Below, one piece after another: positions 30,599 to 44,886 of a stretch of DNA of 44,886 bases; position 1 is the first letter of the stretch; the number at the start of each line of letters is the position of its first letter. The stretch comes from Bacilli bacterium. GTDB taxonomy: Bacteria; Bacillota_I; Bacilli_A; ML615J-28; CAG-313. The DNA lies in contig JAFQRV010000037.1 of assembly GCA_017409905.1 (NCBI GenBank), forward strand, positions 1-44,886, read 5' to 3'. The notes under the pieces were generated by a model. That model ran no database searches, was not told where the DNA came from, and saw only the letters and a program-made list of their open reading frames with translations. Both the position numbers and the translations under genes were made by a program.

Positions 30599-32101
30599 TT
30601 ATTTTTCTTTTAATAAACCTTCTGTTGTTAAAATATATAAATTATCTATTGTTTCATTAATATATTTTCGATCATGAGATACACTTATAATTGTTCCATC
30701 ATATTCACTTAATACTTTTCTAATAATTGGATTAGATAAAGGACTAACATTTCTTGTAGGTTCATCAAGTATTAAAACATTACATTTATCTAACACTAAT
30801 TTAACAAGAAATAACTTTGCTTTTGATCCATTACTTAAATTCTTTATTTTTCCAATCATCTCTTCTTTAGTAAATTTCATATTACCTAAAAGTAGTCTTG
30901 CTTTAGTAATCTCCTCTTTATTGCCTTGTGAAGAAATAAAATCCAATACATATTCATAATTATTTAGAATATCATCATATGTTTGCGGCATATATCCAAC
31001 CTTAATATCATTTCTATCTTTTAATTCGTTATAAATTAATTTTATTAGAGTAGATTTACCAACACCATTTTTACCTATAATACATAAATGTATATTACCA
31101 ATTACATCTAACTTTATGTTTTTAGATAATATCTTATCAGATACTTTTAATTCATCAATGTTTAAATTGATAATATTCTTTGTCCTTGGCATTTCAACAT
31201 CTTCAAAAAAGAAACTAATACTTTCCTCAACATCTGGTACTTCAGTTAATTCAGCTTCATCTAATTTTTTCTCTTGTGACTTTAAAGAATGCATTTTCTT
31301 TTTTAAAACTTTGGCACCATGTGGATCTGCTCTTGAAATTGTATTTTGCTGATATTCAACTTTTTGCATTATTCTTTGCAGTTTTTCATGTTGTTTGGTA
31401 AATTTTCTTTTTTCAGATCTTGCAACTTGTGTTTGCTTTTCTATTTTTCTAAGTCTTTGTTCAACATAGGTATCATAACCAATTTTTAATAATGTATGTC
31501 TGCATTCAGTTTTCTTTTTTATTTGCTCTAAATGTAGAATCATATTTGCTGTATTAGCAAGTAGAGTTTCATCATGTGAAACATATATAATTGGTTTATT
31601 TGTACTATTAATAAATTTTTCTAACCACTCTAATGTTTCAATATCTAAATCATTAGTTGGCTCATCTAGAAATAAAATATCATATTCATTCAATAATAAT
31701 TTCAAAATACTAATTTTGACTTTTTCTCCGCCTGATAATGTTCTAATTTTTTGTTTTAATATATCGTCAGTTAAATTAATTAATTCTAGATATTTATATA
31801 GATTATTAACTTTATCATAATAATCAGTTTCGTCTACAAATAAAAATTCATATACACTTTGATCTAGTTTATCAGCACTAATAGATTGTTCTAGATAACC
31901 AATTCTATTACCTTTTAGATTAATATTTCCACTTATCTCAGCATATTCACAAATGCCTAGAATGGATTTTAATAGAGTGGATTTTCCATTTCCTTCTTCA
32001 CCAATAATAGCAAGTTTATCACTATTATTTAGTATTAAATTTAAATTCTTAATTAAATATCTATCATTAATAGATATAGTTAAATCTTTTATTTCTAACA
32101 T
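30599..32101 (-). CDS. ABC-F ATPase, antibiotic-resistance ribosome-protection type
   Basis: 500 residues with two ABC domains and no membrane segments. First domain: Walker A IIGEEGNGKST, signature RTLSGGEKV, Walker B ILFLDEPTNDLD, VSHDE. Second: IIGKNGVGKST, signature KNLSNGSKA, Walker B VLILDEPTRNVSPLSNP, VSHDR. A basic 80-residue coiled linker (LRKIEKQTQVARSEKRKF ...) between them would reach the ribosome's peptidyl-transferase area. The DEPTRNxSPLSNP block is typical of Clostridium/Bacilli resistance ABC-F proteins rather than housekeeping EttA/Uup. These eject lincosamide, pleuromutilin or streptogramin drugs; specificity cannot be read here. Own promoter, leader peptide and terminator; carried as phage cargo. 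Confidence 0.88.
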   Translation of the reverse strand: MLEIKDLTISINDRYLIKNLNLILNNSDKLAIIGEEGNGKSTLLKSILGICEYAEISGNINLKGNRIGYLEQSISADKLDQSVYEFLFVDETDYYDKVNNLYKYLELINLTDDILKQKIRTLSGGEKVKISILKLLLNEYDILFLDEPTNDLDIETLEWLEKFINSTNKPIIYVSHDETLLANTANMILHLEQIKKKTECRHTLLKIGYDTYVEQRLRKIEKQTQVARSEKRKFTKQHEKLQRIMQKVEYQQNTISRADPHGAKVLKKKMHSLKSQEKKLDEAELTEVPDVEESISFFFEDVEMPRTKNIINLNIDELKVSDKILSKNIKLDVIGNIHLCIIGKNGVGKSTLIKLIYNELKDRNDIKVGYMPQTYDDILNNYEYVLDFISSQGNKEEITKARLLLGNMKFTKEEMIGKIKNLSNGSKAKLFLVKLVLDKCNVLILDEPTRNVSPLSNPIIRKVLSEYDGTIISVSHDRKYINETIDNLYILTTEGLLKEK

Positions 32102-32102
32102 A

Positions 32103-32143
32103 TTATGCCTCCTTTTTTTGGCATAATCGAAGTTTATGCCAAA
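32103..32143 (-). promoter_or_regulatory. Attenuator with alternative hairpins before the ABC-F gene
   Basis: On the minus strand GGCATAA occurs at 32134-32140 (segment 1) and 32103-32109 (segment 3), and its complement TTATGCC at 32120-32126 (segment 2). Segments 1 and 2 lie in a 10-bp stem TTTGGCATAA / TTATGCCAAA. Segments 2 and 3 could pair instead, and segment 3 overlaps the end of the AGGAGG site and the bases before the ABC-F ATG. The two structures exclude each other, as in translational attenuators of resistance genes. Confidence 0.7.
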
Positions 32144-32144
32144 C

Positions 32145-32165
32145 TTATTTAGTTAATGTTCTCAT
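32145..32165 (-). CDS. Six-residue leader peptide of the ABC-F gene
   Basis: A tiny frame, M-R-T-L-T-K-stop, begins at an ATG with GTGAGG about eight bases upstream and ends four bases before the attenuator stem. It lies about 40 bases downstream of a good promoter. Leader peptides of this size and position regulate erm and several ABC-F genes by drug-induced ribosome stalling. No protein function of its own is expected. Confidence 0.65.
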   Translation of the reverse strand: MRTLTK

Positions 32166-32207
32166 TTTCTTACCTCACTTTCAAATTACTATTTGTCTTT
32201 CAGTTAT

Positions 32208-32216
32208 ATTATACCA
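32208..32216 (-). promoter_or_regulatory. Extended -10 promoter of the ABC-F transcript
   Basis: TGG-TATAAT on the minus strand, preceded by TTTTTTA from the upstream terminator. The transcript would start about 35 bases before the leader-peptide ATG and about 100 before the ABC-F ATG. Confidence 0.7.
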
Positions 32217-38520: not shown

Positions 38521-38745
38521 TCATTTTTTTACTGCTAACTTCTTTTTCTTATTCGGTGAGAATCTGATCTTATTGATATCTACATTGTAGACTTCTGCTA
38601 TTTTCTTTGATATTTCAATGCTTGGTGCTGTTCTGCCATGTTCATAATTAAACAATGTATACTTACTAATACCTATTAATGCTGAAGCTTCTTCCAATGT
38701 TAAATCAAGATTTATTCTCAATGCCTTTAGTGAATAATCTCTCAT
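38521..38745 (-). CDS. Cro-like transcriptional regulator
   Basis: 74 residues from the ATG at 38745 (AGGA six bases upstream; a longer frame to 38802 would overrun the promoter). Single Cro/C1 helix-turn-helix: SLKALRINLDLTLEEASALI, GISKYTLFNYEHGRTAPSIE, and a Lys-rich tail SPNKKKKLAVKK. It is divergent from the LexA-like repressor and is the first gene from the early promoter, the standard Cro position. Confidence 0.85.
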   Translation of the reverse strand: MRDYSLKALRINLDLTLEEASALIGISKYTLFNYEHGRTAPSIEISKKIAEVYNVDINKIRFSPNKKKKLAVKK

Positions 38746-38773
38746 TAGCTTCCTGTAACCTCCTTCTAGTTTA

Positions 38774-38802
38774 ATAATAATACGATTTTTTCGTATTGTC
38801 AA
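38774..38802 (-). promoter_or_regulatory. Early (PR-like) promoter with operator filling the spacer
   Basis: On the minus strand TTGACA (38797-38802), 17 bases, TATTAT (38774-38779). The 17-base spacer is exactly the palindromic operator ATACGA-TTTTT-TCGTAT (38780-38796). Binding of the repressor would block RNA polymerase completely. Confidence 0.9.
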
Positions 38803-38819
38803 TAACCCATTGTATAAAA

Positions 38820-38836
38820 TTATGATTTTTTCGTAT
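38820..38836. promoter_or_regulatory. Degenerate repressor operator in the middle of the cro-repressor gap
   Basis: TTATGA-TTTTT-TCGTAT, one perfect half-site and one degenerate, in the same 17-base geometry. Centre-to-centre distance to the early operator is 40 bases. Confidence 0.7.
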
Positions 38837-38852
38837 TATTTTACATTTTATC

Positions 38853-38881
38853 TTGCAAAAAAATACGATTTAATCTATAAT
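38853..38881 (+). promoter_or_regulatory. Repressor (PRM-like) promoter with operator half-site
   Basis: TTGCAA (38853-38858), 17-base spacer, TATAAT (38876-38881). The spacer contains ATACGA (38863-38868), the left arm of the operator, with a poor right arm. Binding here would autoregulate the repressor. Confidence 0.8.
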
Positions 38882-38903
38882 GATAATTGAAAGGAGAATA
38901 ATC

Positions 38904-39584
38904 ATGAGTGCAGTAGAAGGTAATGACAATAATAAAGTCTTTGCTAGAAACTTAAATCGTTTCATGAAAATATTTAATGTTGAACGACATAAGTTAGCAG
39001 ATGAATTAGAAATGAAATACACCACTCTTTGTGATTGGTGCAATGGTAAGTCTTATCCTAAAATGGATAAAATCGAAATACTAGCTGATTACTTTGGTAT
39101 TCAAAAATCTGATCTAATCGAAGATTATGTTTGGGATAGAAATACCAGACTTGCTAGTATGGAGAAGAGAGTTGTCAGAGTTCCTCTTCTTGGTAGAATA
39201 CCTGCTGGTGTTCCGATGGAAGCAATAGAAGATGAGTACACAATTGATTATGAAGAAGTTCCTGCTGATTGGATCACAGGGAATAAGGAGTACTTTGCTT
39301 TAAAGATTACGGGGGATTCTATGGAGCCACAGTATAAAGATGGTGACACGGTTGTATTTTTAAAAACACCTGTATGCAATTCTGGTCAGGATTGCTGTGT
39401 CCGTATTAATGGATGTGATGCCACATTTAAAAGAGTTACAATTAAGGATGATGGTATTATTCTATCTCCATTGAATATGGATAATAGTTCTGGCTTCTTG
39501 CCTAGACTTTATACTAAAGATGAAATAGAAACTATGCCAATTGAGATATTGGGTGTAGCAAAAAAATTAATAAAATATTTATAA
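38904..39584 (+). CDS. CI/LexA-like prophage repressor (HTH + S24 peptidase)
   Basis: 226 residues from the ATG at 38904, which has AAAGGAG nearby; an in-frame ATG at 38880 lacks one. Helix-turn-helix at about 15-75 (FARNLNRFMKIFNVERHKLA, MKYTTLCDWCNGKS). Self-cleavage domain: cut site RIPAGVP (A101-G102), catalytic S139 in ITGDSMEP and K176 in ATFKRV. RecA-stimulated autocleavage should induce the prophage. Divergent from Cro with operators between. It binds ATACGA-N5-TCGTAT by inference. Confidence 0.93.
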   Translation: MSAVEGNDNNKVFARNLNRFMKIFNVERHKLADELEMKYTTLCDWCNGKSYPKMDKIEILADYFGIQKSDLIEDYVWDRNTRLASMEKRVVRVPLLGRIPAGVPMEAIEDEYTIDYEEVPADWITGNKEYFALKITGDSMEPQYKDGDTVVFLKTPVCNSGQDCCVRINGCDATFKRVTIKDDGIILSPLNMDNSSGFLPRLYTKDEIETMPIEILGVAKKLIKYL

Positions 39585-39614
39585 AAAAAAGGACTTGCTC
39601 TGCAAAGCAAATCC
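39583..39614 (-). terminator. Terminator-like hairpin after the repressor gene
   Basis: Stem GGATTTGCT / AGCAAGTCC on the minus strand (one T-G pair) followed by eight T, so it functions best against leftward transcription. The GATTTGCTTT arm resembles the cargo terminators at 30.5 and 32.2 kb. In the plus direction the stem has one mismatch and no T-run. Confidence 0.6.
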
Positions 39615-39633
39615 GAAATGAAAACCTTTTTAA

Positions 39634-39654
39634 AAAGTCTACGAAACTTTAAAA
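39634..39654 (+). repeat. Interspersed 21-base repeat, copy 3
   Basis: Identical to 4235-4255. Located between the repressor and integrase genes, about 100 bases before the integrase start. Confidence 0.9.
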
Positions 39655-39656
39655 CA

Positions 39657-39711
39657 TTCCTAAAAGGATATTTTTTTGGTCTTCGACTATTATTATATCA
39701 CTTTTTAGGAA
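39657..39711. repeat. Inverted repeat upstream of the integrase gene
   Basis: TTCCTAAAAG (39657-39666) pairs with CTTTTTAGGAA (39701-39711), one extra base, enclosing about 35 bases. It could form a leader hairpin controlling integrase expression or bind a regulator. Confidence 0.4.
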
Positions 39712-39757
39712 TTTACACAATTATTTGAATAAATTTGAAAGGAAAGTGATATTTTTT

Positions 39758-40888
39758 ATGCCTGTTTATAAATCTAGCACACCTACCAAAGATGGTAAGT
39801 GTTGGTTCTACAAAATTCAATATACTGATAGCTTATGTAATATTGTAAAATATACAAGTAAAAAGTTTATGACTCGAGCTATTGCAAAAGATGAAGAAAG
39901 AAAACATTTAAATAGACTTGAACAAAATAATAAAGCACCTGAGAAAATGACTCTTGGTGATCTCTGGTTAAAGTTTCTAGCTTTTCAAGATGATAAAGTA
40001 AAAAGAAAAACAAAGGAAGGTTATACTTATAAAGAAAAACACCTAAAATCTTTATGGAATATTCCCTGCTCTAGCTTTAACATTACACATGTTGAAGATT
40101 GGAAGAAACGAATGAATAAAGAAACTAATCTAAATGATGTTTCTAAAAATGATGTTTTAAAAGTATTATGTACTCTAATCAATTTTGGAATTAAATATTA
40201 TAATTATAATTATAGTCAACTCTTAAAATTAATTGAAAAATTTAAAAATCCAGATGAAGTAAAAAAAGAACAAGAAATCTATTCTCCTGCTCAATTTGAG
40301 ATTTTCCTTTCAGTAGAAGAAGATCCTAGATATAGATGTTTATGGAAGATACTATTTCATTGTGGTCTTAGAATTGGTGAAGCTCGTGGACTTCAATGGA
40401 AGGATATTAATTTTGAAAAGAAGACAATGTCTATTTCAAAGCAAGTTCAAAATGTTGATCGTAATACAAATGATTATTATATCTGTAGTCTTAAAACAGC
40501 ATCTAGTAAACGAGTATTGCCTTTATTAGATGTATTCTATAATGATTTATTAGAATATTATAATTATGTTAAACAATTCAAAAATTTTAATGAAGACTTT
40601 TTTGTTTTTGGAGAAGACTTTGGATTACGAGCTTTAACATATCCTCTGGCTAGGAGAAGAAAAAAAGCCAATGCTATCAAAGCTGAGATTAAGGAGATTC
40701 GAATTCATGACTTTAGACATTCATGTGCTTCCTTCTTAATCAATAAAGGCATACCGATAACAGTTGTTTCCAAATATCTTGGTCATGCTAGTATTACGGA
40801 GACTCTTAATACTTACTCACATATGTTCCAAGATTCATTTTCAAATGTTAATGATATGCTTAATGAGTTCTACAAAATTGAAGCCTAA
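39758..40888 (+). CDS. Tyrosine recombinase, prophage integrase
   Basis: 376 residues from the ATG at 39758; a TTG at 39725 is in frame but lies before the AAAGGAAAG site. N-terminal arm-binding domain (1-55), SAM-like core-binding domain (about 65-165: LGDLWLKFLAFQDDKV ...), catalytic domain with R205 (HCGLRIGEARG), H317-x-x-R320 (HDFRHSC), H343 (LGHAS) and nucleophile Y353 (TLNTYSHM). It integrates and excises the phage at the secA 3' end. The gene is next to attR, transcribed towards it, as is usual. Confidence 0.95.
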   Translation: MPVYKSSTPTKDGKCWFYKIQYTDSLCNIVKYTSKKFMTRAIAKDEERKHLNRLEQNNKAPEKMTLGDLWLKFLAFQDDKVKRKTKEGYTYKEKHLKSLWNIPCSSFNITHVEDWKKRMNKETNLNDVSKNDVLKVLCTLINFGIKYYNYNYSQLLKLIEKFKNPDEVKKEQEIYSPAQFEIFLSVEEDPRYRCLWKILFHCGLRIGEARGLQWKDINFEKKTMSISKQVQNVDRNTNDYYICSLKTASSKRVLPLLDVFYNDLLEYYNYVKQFKNFNEDFFVFGEDFGLRALTYPLARRRKKANAIKAEIKEIRIHDFRHSCASFLINKGIPITVVSKYLGHASITETLNTYSHMFQDSFSNVNDMLNEFYKIEA

Positions 40889-40930
40889 GTTGTTATTTTA
40901 ATTGTTTACTTGTTTATTTTAAGTATTTAA

Positions 40931-40961
40931 ATTATCTGGAACTTATCTAAAACTTATCTAA
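40931..40961 (+). repeat. Candidate integrase arm sites, right end
   Basis: ATTATCTGGA (40931-40940), ACTTATCTAA (40941-40950) and ACTTATCTAA (40952-40961): the last two are 11 bases apart. They match the words at 3833-3853 in the same orientation. Confidence 0.55.
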
Positions 40962-41001
40962 AACGATTTTTGGAGCAAAAAATACCATTTTTATGTAATA
41001 G

Positions 41002-41045
41002 AAAAAACTCGGTTTTTCCCTTTATTTACTTGGGTTTCCGAGTTT
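41002..41045 (-). terminator. Terminator of secA, supplied by the prophage
   Basis: On the minus strand AAACTCGG pairs with CCGAGTTT, with inner ACCC/GGG pairing, followed by a T-run. It overlaps the secA stop. Because it lies on the prophage side of the attachment site, the phage provides secA with a new terminator, while the old one remains at 1761-1784. Confidence 0.7.
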
Positions 41046-43530
41046 ATTTACCACAACATTGCTTGAACTTGCGACCACTCCCACATGGACAAGCATCATT
41101 TCTTCCTACTTTAGATACTCTTTTTGGTGATGATTTAAGAGTTTCTTTTCCATCATTTGCTATTCCATTTAATGTTTGCTTTCTTTCAGTATTCTGTTTT
41201 ACTTCCGCTTTAAGTAAAAATTGAGCTGTTAATTCTTCTATTTTTATTAGTAAATTATCAAACATTTCAAATCCTTCCATTGTATATGCTTGAATTGGAT
41301 TTGCTTGACCGTATCCACGAAGTGAGATACCTTCTTTTAAATGTTCCATAGCACTCATATGTTCTACCCAATTTGAATCAATTATCTTAAGTGAAATAGC
41401 TTTTTCAAATTCGTTCATTACTGGTGAATCAATCATTTTCTTTTCATAGTCTTTAATAATTAAATTATAGATTACATCTTTTAATTCTTGATCATTTAAG
41501 TTTTCTATATCATTTAACTTTAAATTATTATTTTTTAAATAATTAGTATTAACATATTCAACTAATTCTTTTTTATCTTCATTAGTAATTTGTCCTTCTT
41601 TTGTATAATGACTTTCAATTAAATTTGTTATAGTATTTTTAAATACTTCTAAAATATTATTATGAATACTTTCTTGTTCCAGTATTTCATTTCTTCTATT
41701 ATAAATAATTTCTCTTTGTTCATTTAAAACATTATCATAATCAAGTAATGTTTTTCTTATATCATAATTATTACCTTCAACTTTTTTTTGTGCTGTTTCA
41801 ATACTTCTTGTTAATGCTTTAGAGCGAATTGCTTGACTTTCTTCAAATCCAACTGAAGTTAACATGTTTCTAATTTTATCAGTACCAAAACGGCGCATTA
41901 AATCATCTTCAAAAGATACAAAGAATTGACTTTTTCCTGGGTCTCCTTGACGACCAGCACGTCCACGTAACTGATTATCTATACGGCGTGATTCATGTCT
42001 TTCTGTTCCTATTACGCAAAGTCCACCTAGTTCTTTAACACCATCACCTAATTTAATGTCAGTCCCACGACCCGCCATATTTGTTGCAAGTGTTATAGCA
42101 CCAATTTCACCTGCTTTTGCAATAATTTCTGCTTCTCTTTCATGATTTTTAGCATTTAAAACTTCATGTTTTAATCCAGCTTTTTTAAGCAAACCACTTA
42201 AATACTCATTTGCCTCTACTGAAATTGTACCTATAAGTATTGGTTCTCCTGTCTTATGTATTTCAGTTACATACTTTATAATTGCTTCATATTTTCCTTT
42301 ACAAGTTGGATAAACTAAATCTGCATAGTCATCTCTTATTACTTCTTTATTTGTTGGAATTTCTATAACATACATATTATATATGTTTCTAAATTCTTCT
42401 TCTTCTGTTTTAGCAGTACCAGTCATACCTGATAATTTTTTATACATTCTAAATAAATTTTGAAATGTAATTGTTGCCATAGTTTTTGTTTCAGTATTTA
42501 TTGTAACATTTTCTTTTGCCTCAATAGCTTGATGTAATCCATCACTAAATTGTCTCCCATGCATTAAACGACCTGTAAATTGATCAACAATAATTACTTC
42601 ATCGTTTTGTACTACATAATCTACGTCTTTTTTAAATCCATAATTTGCCTTTAAAGCTTGATTTAAATGATGTACTAAAGAAGTATTATCTAAATCATAT
42701 AAATTTTTTAAATTAAATAATTTTTCAATTTTTTTGCTTCCTTCTTCAGTTAGAGAAACATTTTTTGTTTTTACATCGATATCAAAATCATCGTTTTCTT
42801 TTAATTTTTTTACAGCTTTATCTGCATCAACATATAAATTTCTAGTATTAAATTTACCACCACTTATAATAAGTGGAGTTCTAGCCTCATCAATTAATAT
42901 TGAGTCAACTTCGTCAATAATACAATGATTAAGTGGTCTTTGAACCCTATCTTCTAGTCTTACTACCATGTTATCTCTTAAATAATCAAAACCTATCTCA
43001 TTATTTGTTGAGTATAAAATATCTTTATTATATGCTTCTTTTTTTTCTTGAGAAGACATTTCTCTTAAATTAACTCCAACTGAAACACCAAGTAAATCAT
43101 AAACTGGTTTCATCCATTCCGCATTTCGACTTGATAAATATTCATTTGTTGTAACTACATGTACACCTTCACCTGTTAATGAATTTACATATGCCGGCAA
43201 TATTGTTGTTAATGTTTTACCTTCACCTGTCTTCATTTCTGCAATATTACCATAGTGTATTGCAAGTCCACCTAAAAGTTGAACATAATATGCTTTTTCG
43301 CCTATAGTTCTTGAAGCTGCTTCTCTTGCTAATGCAAAAGCTTCTACTAAAATATCATCTAAAGTTTCTCCTTGTTTTAATCTTTCTTTAAACTCTTCTG
43401 TTTTTTTTGCAAAATCTTTATCTTTTAATTTTTGCATTTCTTCATCTAAAAGTACAATTTGATCAGCAATACTTTCAAATCTTTTTAATTCTTTATATTC
43501 ACTATCAAGTAATTTTTTAAATAGTCCCAT
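41044..43530 (-). CDS. secA: Protein translocase ATPase SecA
   Basis: 828 residues from the ATG at 43530 (GAGGTGG upstream). Motor domains: Walker A EMKTGEGKTLTT (about 98-109), DEVD box IIDEVDSILIDEARTPLIIS, AGRGTDIKLG, and ESRRIDNQLRGRAGRQGDPG. The C-terminus is the zinc-binding SEC-C tail ACPCGSGRKFKQCCGK. It drives preproteins through SecYEG. The last codons lie in the prophage attachment core, and the frame and all zinc ligands are preserved. Upstream neighbour is hpf. Confidence 0.98.
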   Translation of the reverse strand: MGLFKKLLDSEYKELKRFESIADQIVLLDEEMQKLKDKDFAKKTEEFKERLKQGETLDDILVEAFALAREAASRTIGEKAYYVQLLGGLAIHYGNIAEMKTGEGKTLTTILPAYVNSLTGEGVHVVTTNEYLSSRNAEWMKPVYDLLGVSVGVNLREMSSQEKKEAYNKDILYSTNNEIGFDYLRDNMVVRLEDRVQRPLNHCIIDEVDSILIDEARTPLIISGGKFNTRNLYVDADKAVKKLKENDDFDIDVKTKNVSLTEEGSKKIEKLFNLKNLYDLDNTSLVHHLNQALKANYGFKKDVDYVVQNDEVIIVDQFTGRLMHGRQFSDGLHQAIEAKENVTINTETKTMATITFQNLFRMYKKLSGMTGTAKTEEEEFRNIYNMYVIEIPTNKEVIRDDYADLVYPTCKGKYEAIIKYVTEIHKTGEPILIGTISVEANEYLSGLLKKAGLKHEVLNAKNHEREAEIIAKAGEIGAITLATNMAGRGTDIKLGDGVKELGGLCVIGTERHESRRIDNQLRGRAGRQGDPGKSQFFVSFEDDLMRRFGTDKIRNMLTSVGFEESQAIRSKALTRSIETAQKKVEGNNYDIRKTLLDYDNVLNEQREIIYNRRNEILEQESIHNNILEVFKNTITNLIESHYTKEGQITNEDKKELVEYVNTNYLKNNNLKLNDIENLNDQELKDVIYNLIIKDYEKKMIDSPVMNEFEKAISLKIIDSNWVEHMSAMEHLKEGISLRGYGQANPIQAYTMEGFEMFDNLLIKIEELTAQFLLKAEVKQNTERKQTLNGIANDGKETLKSSPKRVSKVGRNDACPCGSGRKFKQCCGK
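41046..41070. other. attR: prophage attachment site inside secA
   Basis: ATTTACCACAACATTG (41046-41061) matches 3683-3698 at 15 of 16 bases, and TTACCACAACATTG (41048-41061) matches 1791-1804 exactly. It covers the codons for the final Q-C-C-G-K of SecA. Confidence 0.75.
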
Positions 43531-43605
43531 AATCCACCTCAATTTTAATTATAACACGTCTATTTCCATTCTCAAAGTTAAACACCATTTTTTTGCTTTA
43601 CAAAA

Positions 43606-43630
43606 TATAAAAAAAGGCTTTAACACCTTT
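43606..43630 (-). terminator. Weak terminator after hpf
   Basis: AAAGG / CCTTT with an 8-base loop followed by seven T on the minus strand, starting in the hpf stop codon. The short stem may allow read-through into secA. Confidence 0.5.
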
Positions 43631-44159
43631 ATTTTACATTTATAATTCCATACTTATTGTCTTTTCTTTTATAAATAACTGATACACATTCTTCATCTAT
43701 ATTTTTAAAAACAAAGAAATCATGATTTAAAAGTCGCATTTGTAAAACTGCTTCTTCTTCATTCATAGGTTTTGTATCTATATTCTTTCTTTTAATAATA
43801 TCTAATTCTTCTTCATCTCCATCAATTTCAAAATCTAAATTCATTTCTGGGATCTCAACTTTTTCATATCTATTTTGTAATTTTGTTTTATTTTTTCTTA
43901 TTTGACCTTCTAATTTATCTACAACTGAATCTATCGCTGCATATAAGTCTTTATCTTCTACTTCTGCTCTTAAAATAAATTTATTTAATGGAATAGTAAC
44001 TTCTATTATTTGTAAATTATTTTTAGTTTTAACTAAAACTTTACATTCTATTTCTTTAGAATTTTCATAATATTTATTTAGTTTATTTAACTTTTCTTCA
44101 ATGTAGTCTTTAATAGATTTAGTAACAGTTAATTTATCTCCTCTAATATTATATTTCAT
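43629..44159 (-). CDS. hpf: Ribosome hibernation promoting factor, long form
   Basis: 176 residues, the long HPF type of Firmicutes. N-terminal S30AE domain (1-100): MKYNIRGDKLTVTKSIKDYI, EVTIPLNKFILRAEVEDKDL, YAAIDSVVDKLEGQIRKNKT. After a linker the C-terminal dimerisation domain (about 120-176) reads TKPMNEEEAVLQMRLLNHDF and FFVFKNIDEECVSVIYKRKD. It pairs 70S ribosomes into inactive 100S dimers in stationary phase. Standing upstream of secA is the normal Firmicutes order. Confidence 0.96.
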   Translation of the reverse strand: MKYNIRGDKLTVTKSIKDYIEEKLNKLNKYYENSKEIECKVLVKTKNNLQIIEVTIPLNKFILRAEVEDKDLYAAIDSVVDKLEGQIRKNKTKLQNRYEKVEIPEMNLDFEIDGDEEELDIIKRKNIDTKPMNEEEAVLQMRLLNHDFFVFKNIDEECVSVIYKRKDNKYGIINVK

Positions 44160-44179
44160 AAAACCACTCTCCTATTTAA

Positions 44180-44188
44180 ATTATACCA
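44180..44188 (-). promoter_or_regulatory. Extended -10 promoter of hpf
   Basis: TGG-TATAAT on the minus strand, 20 bases before the hpf ATG, with AGGAGAG as ribosome binding site. TTTGCC is the only -35 candidate at 17 bases. Confidence 0.6.
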
Positions 44189-44216
44189 CAAACAATAAAA
44201 TAGGCAAACAAATAAA

Positions 44217-44236
44217 AAAGAGAATTAATTCTCTTT
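44217..44236. repeat. Palindromic hairpin between csp and hpf
   Basis: AAAGAGAATTAATTCTCTTT is a perfect 20-base palindrome preceded by A-run. It may act as a second terminator after csp; otherwise nothing is seen in 44237-44293. Confidence 0.5.
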
Positions 44237-44293
44237 AAACGAGTACTTTCTAGAAAAATAATGGGTGTACACATTAAATAAAAAATTGGACAT

Positions 44294-44319
44294 AAAAAAA
44301 CTATTTACACAATAGTTTT
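44294..44319 (-). terminator. Terminator of the cold-shock gene
   Basis: AAAACTATT / AATAGTTTT (9 bp) with a 5-base loop and a T-run in the minus direction; overlaps the csp stop. Confidence 0.8.
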
Positions 44320-44517
44320 TTGTTCTTCTACTACATCCACTGCTTGTAATCCTTTAGAAGTTTCAACAAGTTTGAAATTAACTAGAGCTCCTTCATCTAA
44401 AGTTTTATAACCTTCTTTGACAATTGCAGAATAATGAACAAAAATATCCTCCAAATTTTCATATTCTATAAAGCCGTAACCTTTTTCATTGTTAAACCAC
44501 TTTACTTTTCCATGCAT
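44305..44517 (-). CDS. Cold-shock domain protein
   Basis: 70 residues from the ATG at 44517 (AGGTGG upstream; an upstream GTG is less likely). Single cold-shock OB fold with both RNA-binding motifs: KGYGFIEY (RNP1) and DIFVHYSAI (RNP2), ending [11 protein letters not shown]. It binds single-stranded RNA and melts structure at low temperature or during growth. It has a 170-base leader region upstream with no gene, as usual for csp mRNAs. Confidence 0.95.
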
Positions 44518-44699
44518 ACATCCCACCTCTTTCCTTCATGATTTAATTATTGCATACCGAGTATTTATATTGCAATAAATATCGTGCGACAAAAATCGAC
44601 AAAGTACTTTTTTTGGGACAAATCCATAATATCAAATATGCTCTTTTAAGAAAAGAATTTTTTTAATAGTTTTTTAAAACTTTACAAAAATTAACATTA

Positions 44700-44886
44700 T
44701 TAATTTTTTAATGCTAATTTTATATATAAATTGTTATGATCTTCATAGTAAAAATAGTTATAATATTTATTTTTTATTATATTTATTAATTCTTCTATAT
44801 TTTTACCACATAAAATTATTTTATCTTTTTGAATAATTTTAAAAATATCATTTATTAATTTCTTATTTATATAATCATTTTTATAT
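44700..44886 (-). CDS. C-terminal end of an unidentified gene (partial)
   Basis: An open minus-strand frame of 62 codons enters from the right edge and ends at TAA 44700-44702. It contains no start codon. Visible residues include KKLINDIFKIIQKDKIILCG, EELINIIKNKYYNYFYYEDH and a final KLALKN. Base composition is even more AT-rich than its neighbours. Upstream of hpf many Firmicutes carry comF genes, but I see no ComF motif. Low confidence that it is coding. Confidence 0.4.
   Translation of the reverse strand, partial: YKNDYINKKLINDIFKIIQKDKIILCGKNIEELINIIKNKYYNYFYYEDHNNLYIKLALKN

Follow-up and report, generated by a model that had tools for sequence, protein, structure and literature searches.

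How is the ABC-F ATPase gene controlled that lies within a prophage on contig JAFQRV010000037.1 (44,886 nt, analysed over its whole length and hereafter called the window)? The gene (30599..32101, minus strand, 500 aa) was assigned on the basis of its ORF, a profile match, and a predicted structure. In a first-pass annotation it had been proposed that about 110 bases in front of it contain a promoter, a six-codon leader frame, and three interchangeable segments, whose alternative pairing depends on the position of a ribosome on the leader. From the comparison of sequences we consider it rather probable that this leader acts as a ribosome-sensing translational attenuator of the ABC-F gene, which would operate kinetically and would be switched on by a drug stalling the ribosome at the leader start.

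Architecture of the leader

Read on the minus strand, the postulated frame MRTLTK-stop and the segments GGCATAA, TTATGCC, and GGCATAA were indeed found before the ABC-F gene. The leader ORF (ATG AGA ACA TTA ACT AAA TAA, MRTLTK*, six codons; 32165-32145) is located just 3' of a Shine-Dalgarno (SD) motif GAGGT at about 32177-32173. Following its stop codon, the minus strand reads GTTT, GGCATAA, ACTTCGA, TTATGCC, AAAAAAAGGA, GGCATAAT, and ATG, the latter being the start codon of the ABC-F gene (32101-32099). Segment 1 (GGCATAA, 32134..32140), the presumed anti-sequestor arm, pairs with segment 2, the shared arm ((A)TTATGCC, 32120..32127, with TTATGCC at 32126-32120), and the resulting helix comprises 10 pairs if the flanking TTT/AAA are counted and encloses the loop ACTTCGA. 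Segment 3 (GGCATAAT, GGCATAA(T), 32102..32109) abuts the start codon and, as had been claimed, overlaps the ABC-F SD GGAGG (32112-32108), an overlap that is conserved in relatives.

When the 118-base region (32216-32099) was shuffled 20,000 times with its dinucleotides preserved, a GC-containing 7-mer with a further copy and the complement in between occurred once. When the window was cut into 8,954 overlapping tiles, 16 of them contained such a triplet, approximately the number expected if all 16 cover the leader site. Taken by itself, the folding energy is unremarkable (z -1.27); the evidence for the leader is comparative. No family of Rfam matched the window at the gathering threshold.

Regarding the promoter, an extended -10 element TGGTATAAT is present (32208..32216, minus strand), but it is not accompanied by a good -35 element. 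Due to the occurrence of TGNTATAAT 15 times in the window versus 7.5 expected, this element is regarded as a candidate only, read from the sequence and from a TATAAT motif in some relatives (23 out of 50 at a comparable distance, versus 14.6 expected).

The leader is compact, with a length of about 80 nt, and apparently terminator-free: no terminator-like hairpin was found on the coding strand between leader and ABC-F gene in the window. The 1:2 hairpin was scored terminator-like on the plus strand, as would be expected for a bidirectional terminator or another inverted repeat without leader-dependent regulation. We regard this explanation as very improbable, because the hairpin lacks a trailing U-run on the coding strand, where in relatives an A-rich spacer comes after segment 2 instead, and because the third segment, the leader ORF, and the orientation to the ABC-F gene are conserved in dozens of leaders.

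Two further features of this region were noted. The conserved loop of the 1:2 hairpin (32133-32127; ACUUC(G) or ACUUU) can pair with the leader SD UGAGGU (32178-32173), whereby the leader itself might be closed once 2:3 has formed; this pairing is strong in the window (6 bp) and inconsistent across relatives, with a probability >0.3 in only 5 of 51 leaders. A second mini-frame (MPxKEA), whose start lies within segment 2, shifts its frame with the spacer length and was dismissed as a by-product of the conserved segments.

Distribution of leader and gene

A search of contigs for relatives of the ABC-F gene yielded 56 loci. Nearly all loci with at least 54% identity and with upstream sequence carry the same leader, and relatives at about 52% and lower among these loci are devoid of it, as is the orthologue L034 with 72% identity. 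A covariance model built from 25 leaders matched 44 of the 291 genomes in a single family of uncultured gut Bacilli. Of the 46 matches in this family, 43 are located directly 5' of an ABC-F orthologue (52-100% identical); one precedes an ABC-F remnant, and the remaining two precede unrelated genes with weak E-values (L108, E 0.0039; L109, E 0.0062) and were treated as chance hits. The remnant (L102, G617:C70:95-175) represents a decayed leader, followed by only the C-terminal part of an ABC-F gene. Outside this family the model matched the window's own genome as the only one among 43 genomes of its order, 4 of 395 genomes in a sample of the class, and again solely the window's own genome in a phylum sample of 392 genomes. 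In a scan of viral contigs, no relatives were found.

The orthologue of L042/L103 keeps a leader ORF (MRIMKQEKL) and lacks segments 1 and 3. The leader end CTTTG can pair with CAAAG of the SD, possibly representing a two-segment, cat-like version. The existence of some orthologues without a leader (L034) or with the ORF alone (L042/L103) counts against the interpretation as an attenuator.

Pairing in relatives

Instead of relying on a raw MAFFT alignment, we positioned every distinct leader by the segments it contains. Both helices, 1:2 and 2:3, are strictly satisfied in 51 of 56 distinct leaders, and the proposed mutually exclusive pairing is thus conserved. The five others show one mismatch (L080), a bulge (L099 and L100), a shifted gene start (L024), and the loss of segments 1 and 3 with retention of the ORF (L103, identical to L042). 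Paired cells amount to 356/357 for 1:2 and 387/408 for 2:3, whereby several leaders are close relatives and the cells do not represent independent events. Substitutions are mainly A-to-G or C-to-U and compatible with G-U pairs, so that they mostly preserve pairing. L101/L104 show a simultaneous change of the third pair in segments 1, 2, and 3 (GGTATAA/TTATACC/GGTATA), and in six leaders the outermost 2:3 pair is flipped from A-U to U-A. The near-invariance of the segments limits such two-sided covariation; for the same reason, and due to the misalignment of three divergent leaders, the covariation signal in the raw MAFFT alignment was modest to weak.

With a short leader ORF provided with its own SD 5' of the gene, and with exclusive helices of which one hides the SD, the leader has the composition of a ribosome-mediated translational attenuator; for the helices this assignment is comparative, the equilibrium prediction being one-sided (see below).

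Leader peptide and ribosome geometry

The leader ORF comprises 3-9 codons, exactly six in 35 of 51 leaders. The peptide starts with M-R in 42 of 51 cases and is variable beyond, codons 3-6 not being conserved; in L046/L105 it is reduced to MRI-stop. As expected for stalling at the start codon with little dependence on sequence context, the peptide appears free to vary and MRI-stop appears to suffice.

Despite this variation in ORF length, segment 1 starts +18 to +30 from the A of the leader AUG and never earlier, and its start lies 0-5 nt past the leader stop in 48 of 51 leaders and overlaps the stop in the other 3. The toeprint edge of a 30S subunit at a start codon is +16 (PMC9226507). Hence, a ribosome held at the start should leave segment 1 free, and due to the distance of 0-5 nt a ribosome at the stop codon should cover most or all of it. 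That the spacing meets both limits across so many leaders is, at the level of sequence, the informative point. The ribosome-position logic put forward in the first-pass annotation is therefore compatible with the footprint geometry in nearly every leader, but at equilibrium 2:3 is favoured in most leaders even with segment 1 free.

A fixed position of the leader stop relative to segment 1 would also be in agreement with classical attenuation of the cat/erm type, in which the SD of the ABC-F gene is freed by a ribosome that stalls late, at codon 5, codon 6, or the stop. MsrDL shows that a drug can indeed cause stalling on the stop codon of a leader (PMC10314930), and L042/L103 could work in this way by means of its CTTTG/CAAAG pairing. 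A ribosome covering segment 1, however, leaves only 2:3 and thereby a closed SD, no fourth segment was seen, and the peptide is not conserved in codons 3-6. Altogether we judge classical attenuation to be improbable here.

Folding and proposed mechanism

In transcripts ending just before segment 3, the median probability of the 1:2 helix is 0.98 with a ribosome at codons 1-3, exceeding 0.8 in at least 50 of 51 leaders, and it is 0 with a ribosome at the stop, which partly follows from the mask itself. For full-length transcripts at equilibrium, the median probability of 2:3 is 0.82 for naked, 0.94 for start-stalled, and 0.99 for stop-codon states. In most leaders 2:3 thus dominates irrespective of whether segment 1 is free. 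Equilibrium folding with ribosome masks was discarded as a test of switching, since neither the SD accessibility nor, in most leaders, the helix probability separated the start-stalled from the stop state. These predictions are evidence against a purely thermodynamic switch. Because equilibrium favours the closed helix in most states, a switch would have to be kinetic and co-transcriptional, and the one proposed here, as we infer, rests on the order of synthesis and on ribosome traffic. The two local hairpins hardly differ in energy (medians -8.1 and -8.8 kcal/mol), and the barrier from 1:2 to 2:3 is estimated at only 8-14 kcal/mol (13.3 in the window), so that in some members the open state may not last long.

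According to the proposed attenuator mechanism, hairpin 1:2 would form first during transcription and leave the ABC-F SD open. A ribosome finishing the leader would come to sit at the stop codon, cover segment 1, and thereby melt 1:2; segment 2 would then be free as segment 3 emerges, and the 2:3 helix would form, trap segment 2, and close the SD (off). A drug acting on the peptidyl-transferase centre, most likely a pleuromutilin, lincosamide, or streptogramin A, would stall the ribosome at codons 1-3, so that segment 1 remains uncovered, 1:2 persists, and ABC-F is translated (on). The switch would represent a kinetic race rather than an equilibrium, and the ABC-F protein would then most likely rescue drug-stalled ribosomes.

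The ABC-F protein

The best NCBIfam model for the protein is ribo_prot_ABC_F (E 6.7e-89; 299 bits versus a cut-off of 380), followed by Vga (235/725), Msr (221/680), CplR (216/780), and Sal, all far under their cut-offs; a score above any curated model of a named resistance ABC-F protein was thus not reached by the window protein in NCBIfam. The best named plasmid matches are to Vga(A), with about 30% identity. The AlphaFold model is confident (pLDDT 90.7) and its best Foldseek matches are PoxtA and VmlR2 on the ribosome, with the housekeeping proteins Uup, EttA, and YbiT scoring nearly as high. It predicts the two-ATPase ABC-F fold with a long interdomain linker, formed by helices 209-254 and 260-281 between the ATPase domains. 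In the second ATPase domain, the usual signature and D-loop are replaced by an unusual LSNGS and by DEPTRNVSPLSNP (DEPTRNVSPLS), the latter varying at hardly any position in 18 relatives and lacking in Vga(A) and OptrA. This unusual motif counts against the proposed mechanism. From its sequence the protein is a divergent ABC-F protein, for which a resistance function is inferred.

Prophage and mobility of the cassette

The location on a prophage, likewise stated in the first-pass annotation, is borne out by genes for integrase, replication, terminase, tape-measure, and lysis functions in the window and by an integration junction beside secA. Genome G447, which belongs to another family of another order, contains this prophage as well, with 99-100% identity extending to about 41.1 kb; the secA gene that it adjoins there has an identity of no more than about 71-83% to that of the window. 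In both orders, integration took place beside the 3' end of secA (window 38700-44886; L110-L112, G447:C13). The secA and hpf genes of the two hosts differ by about 17-29%. As the two host flanks differ, a single phage is present in two hosts and simple mis-binning does not account for the finding; this temperate phage has recently been transferred between orders. With its closest homologue elsewhere, L009 (93%), the ABC-F locus of the window has only a 1.6 kb stretch of leader plus gene in common, which indicates that the cassette also moves on its own. Among other copies, judged by the neighbouring ORFs, L029 has integrase/relaxase genes close by, and L037 is situated in chromosomal surroundings. 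In case of the orthologue at L010:6535-8058, the ORFs located 3' resemble a small kinase and an aminoglycoside phosphotransferase-like protein, by sequence perhaps a resistance cluster.

The low scores against all curated resistance cut-offs, the ordinary chromosomal surroundings of some copies, e.g., beside a RelA/SpoT-like gene in L037, and the lack of a defined peptide that would encode drug specificity would suit a sensor that responds to the state of translation in general, such as slow initiation, slow elongation, or starvation, and that tunes a housekeeping-like ABC-F protein instead of acting as a resistance switch. The patchy distribution (44 of 291 genomes of the family), the copies associated with prophage and integrase/relaxase genes, and the likeness of the uORF to the MR[I/M] of cplR rather suggest resistance cargo, and a general sensor seems unlikely to us.

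Comparison with known systems

No description of such a leader was found in the open-access papers searched. We consider the chances evenly balanced that it represents an undescribed regulatory RNA family, in which finishing a leader of 3-9 codons, rather than stalling on it, represses a ribosome-protection gene, with one SD-closing helix per finished round, a drug-induced start stall being read as no ribosome at the leader stop, and a prophage moving the cassette between orders. If true, a simpler way to sense drugs that stall at the start codon would be given by a reversed ribosome geometry, and a drug-sensing cassette would be documented on a prophage in hosts of two orders. The leader model would moreover provide a means of searching uncultured gut bacteria for hidden inducible ABC-F genes.

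In amino-acid operon attenuators of the trp type, the ribosome on the leader picks between overlapping hairpins, depending on whether it stalls early or sits at the stop codon. The proposed selection of a hairpin by an early stall versus the stop codon is alike; in the trp type, however, starvation controls transcription termination and not access to an SD. In cat, translation is likewise attenuated by exclusive hairpins and a leader peptide. The same likeness applies to erm (PMC10219788), whereas the logic proposed for the window leader departs from both, in line with the initial claim that it differs from erm: in erm/cat, stalling masks an arm and the SD opens, and here completion would mask an arm and the SD would close.

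Described ABC-F resistance genes tend toward transcriptional regulation (PMC10314930), and an intrinsic terminator typical of the vmlR, vgaA, lmo0919, and msrD type was not found on the coding strand between leader ORF and ABC-F gene in the window. In vmlR of B. subtilis, with the uORF MIN, and in Listeria lmo0919/vgaL, a tiny uORF before the ABC-F gene likewise senses drugs of the peptidyl-transferase centre (PMC9226507), but these systems employ an antiterminator and anti-antiterminator with NusG pausing, and their geometry of ribosome and first hairpin is opposite. The cplR leader of C. difficile is similar in its very short uORF (MR[I/M]), its ABC-F gene, and a hairpin over the SD; it is induced by retapamulin and lincomycin, with start-proximal stalling by pleuromutilin/lincosamide and with attenuation of both transcription and translation (PMC10201436). 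In cplR, as in vmlR, the uORF is located within the first, 5' hairpin, which is disrupted by the stalled ribosome (PMC10201436, PMC9226507), and an intrinsic terminator is used in cplR. In the window leader, where a terminator was not found, segment 1 lies past the stop codon and outside a ribosome stalled at the start. On the sequence evidence we therefore assign the window leader to ribosome-mediated attenuation, with a geometry that appears unlike that of the described ABC-F attenuators.
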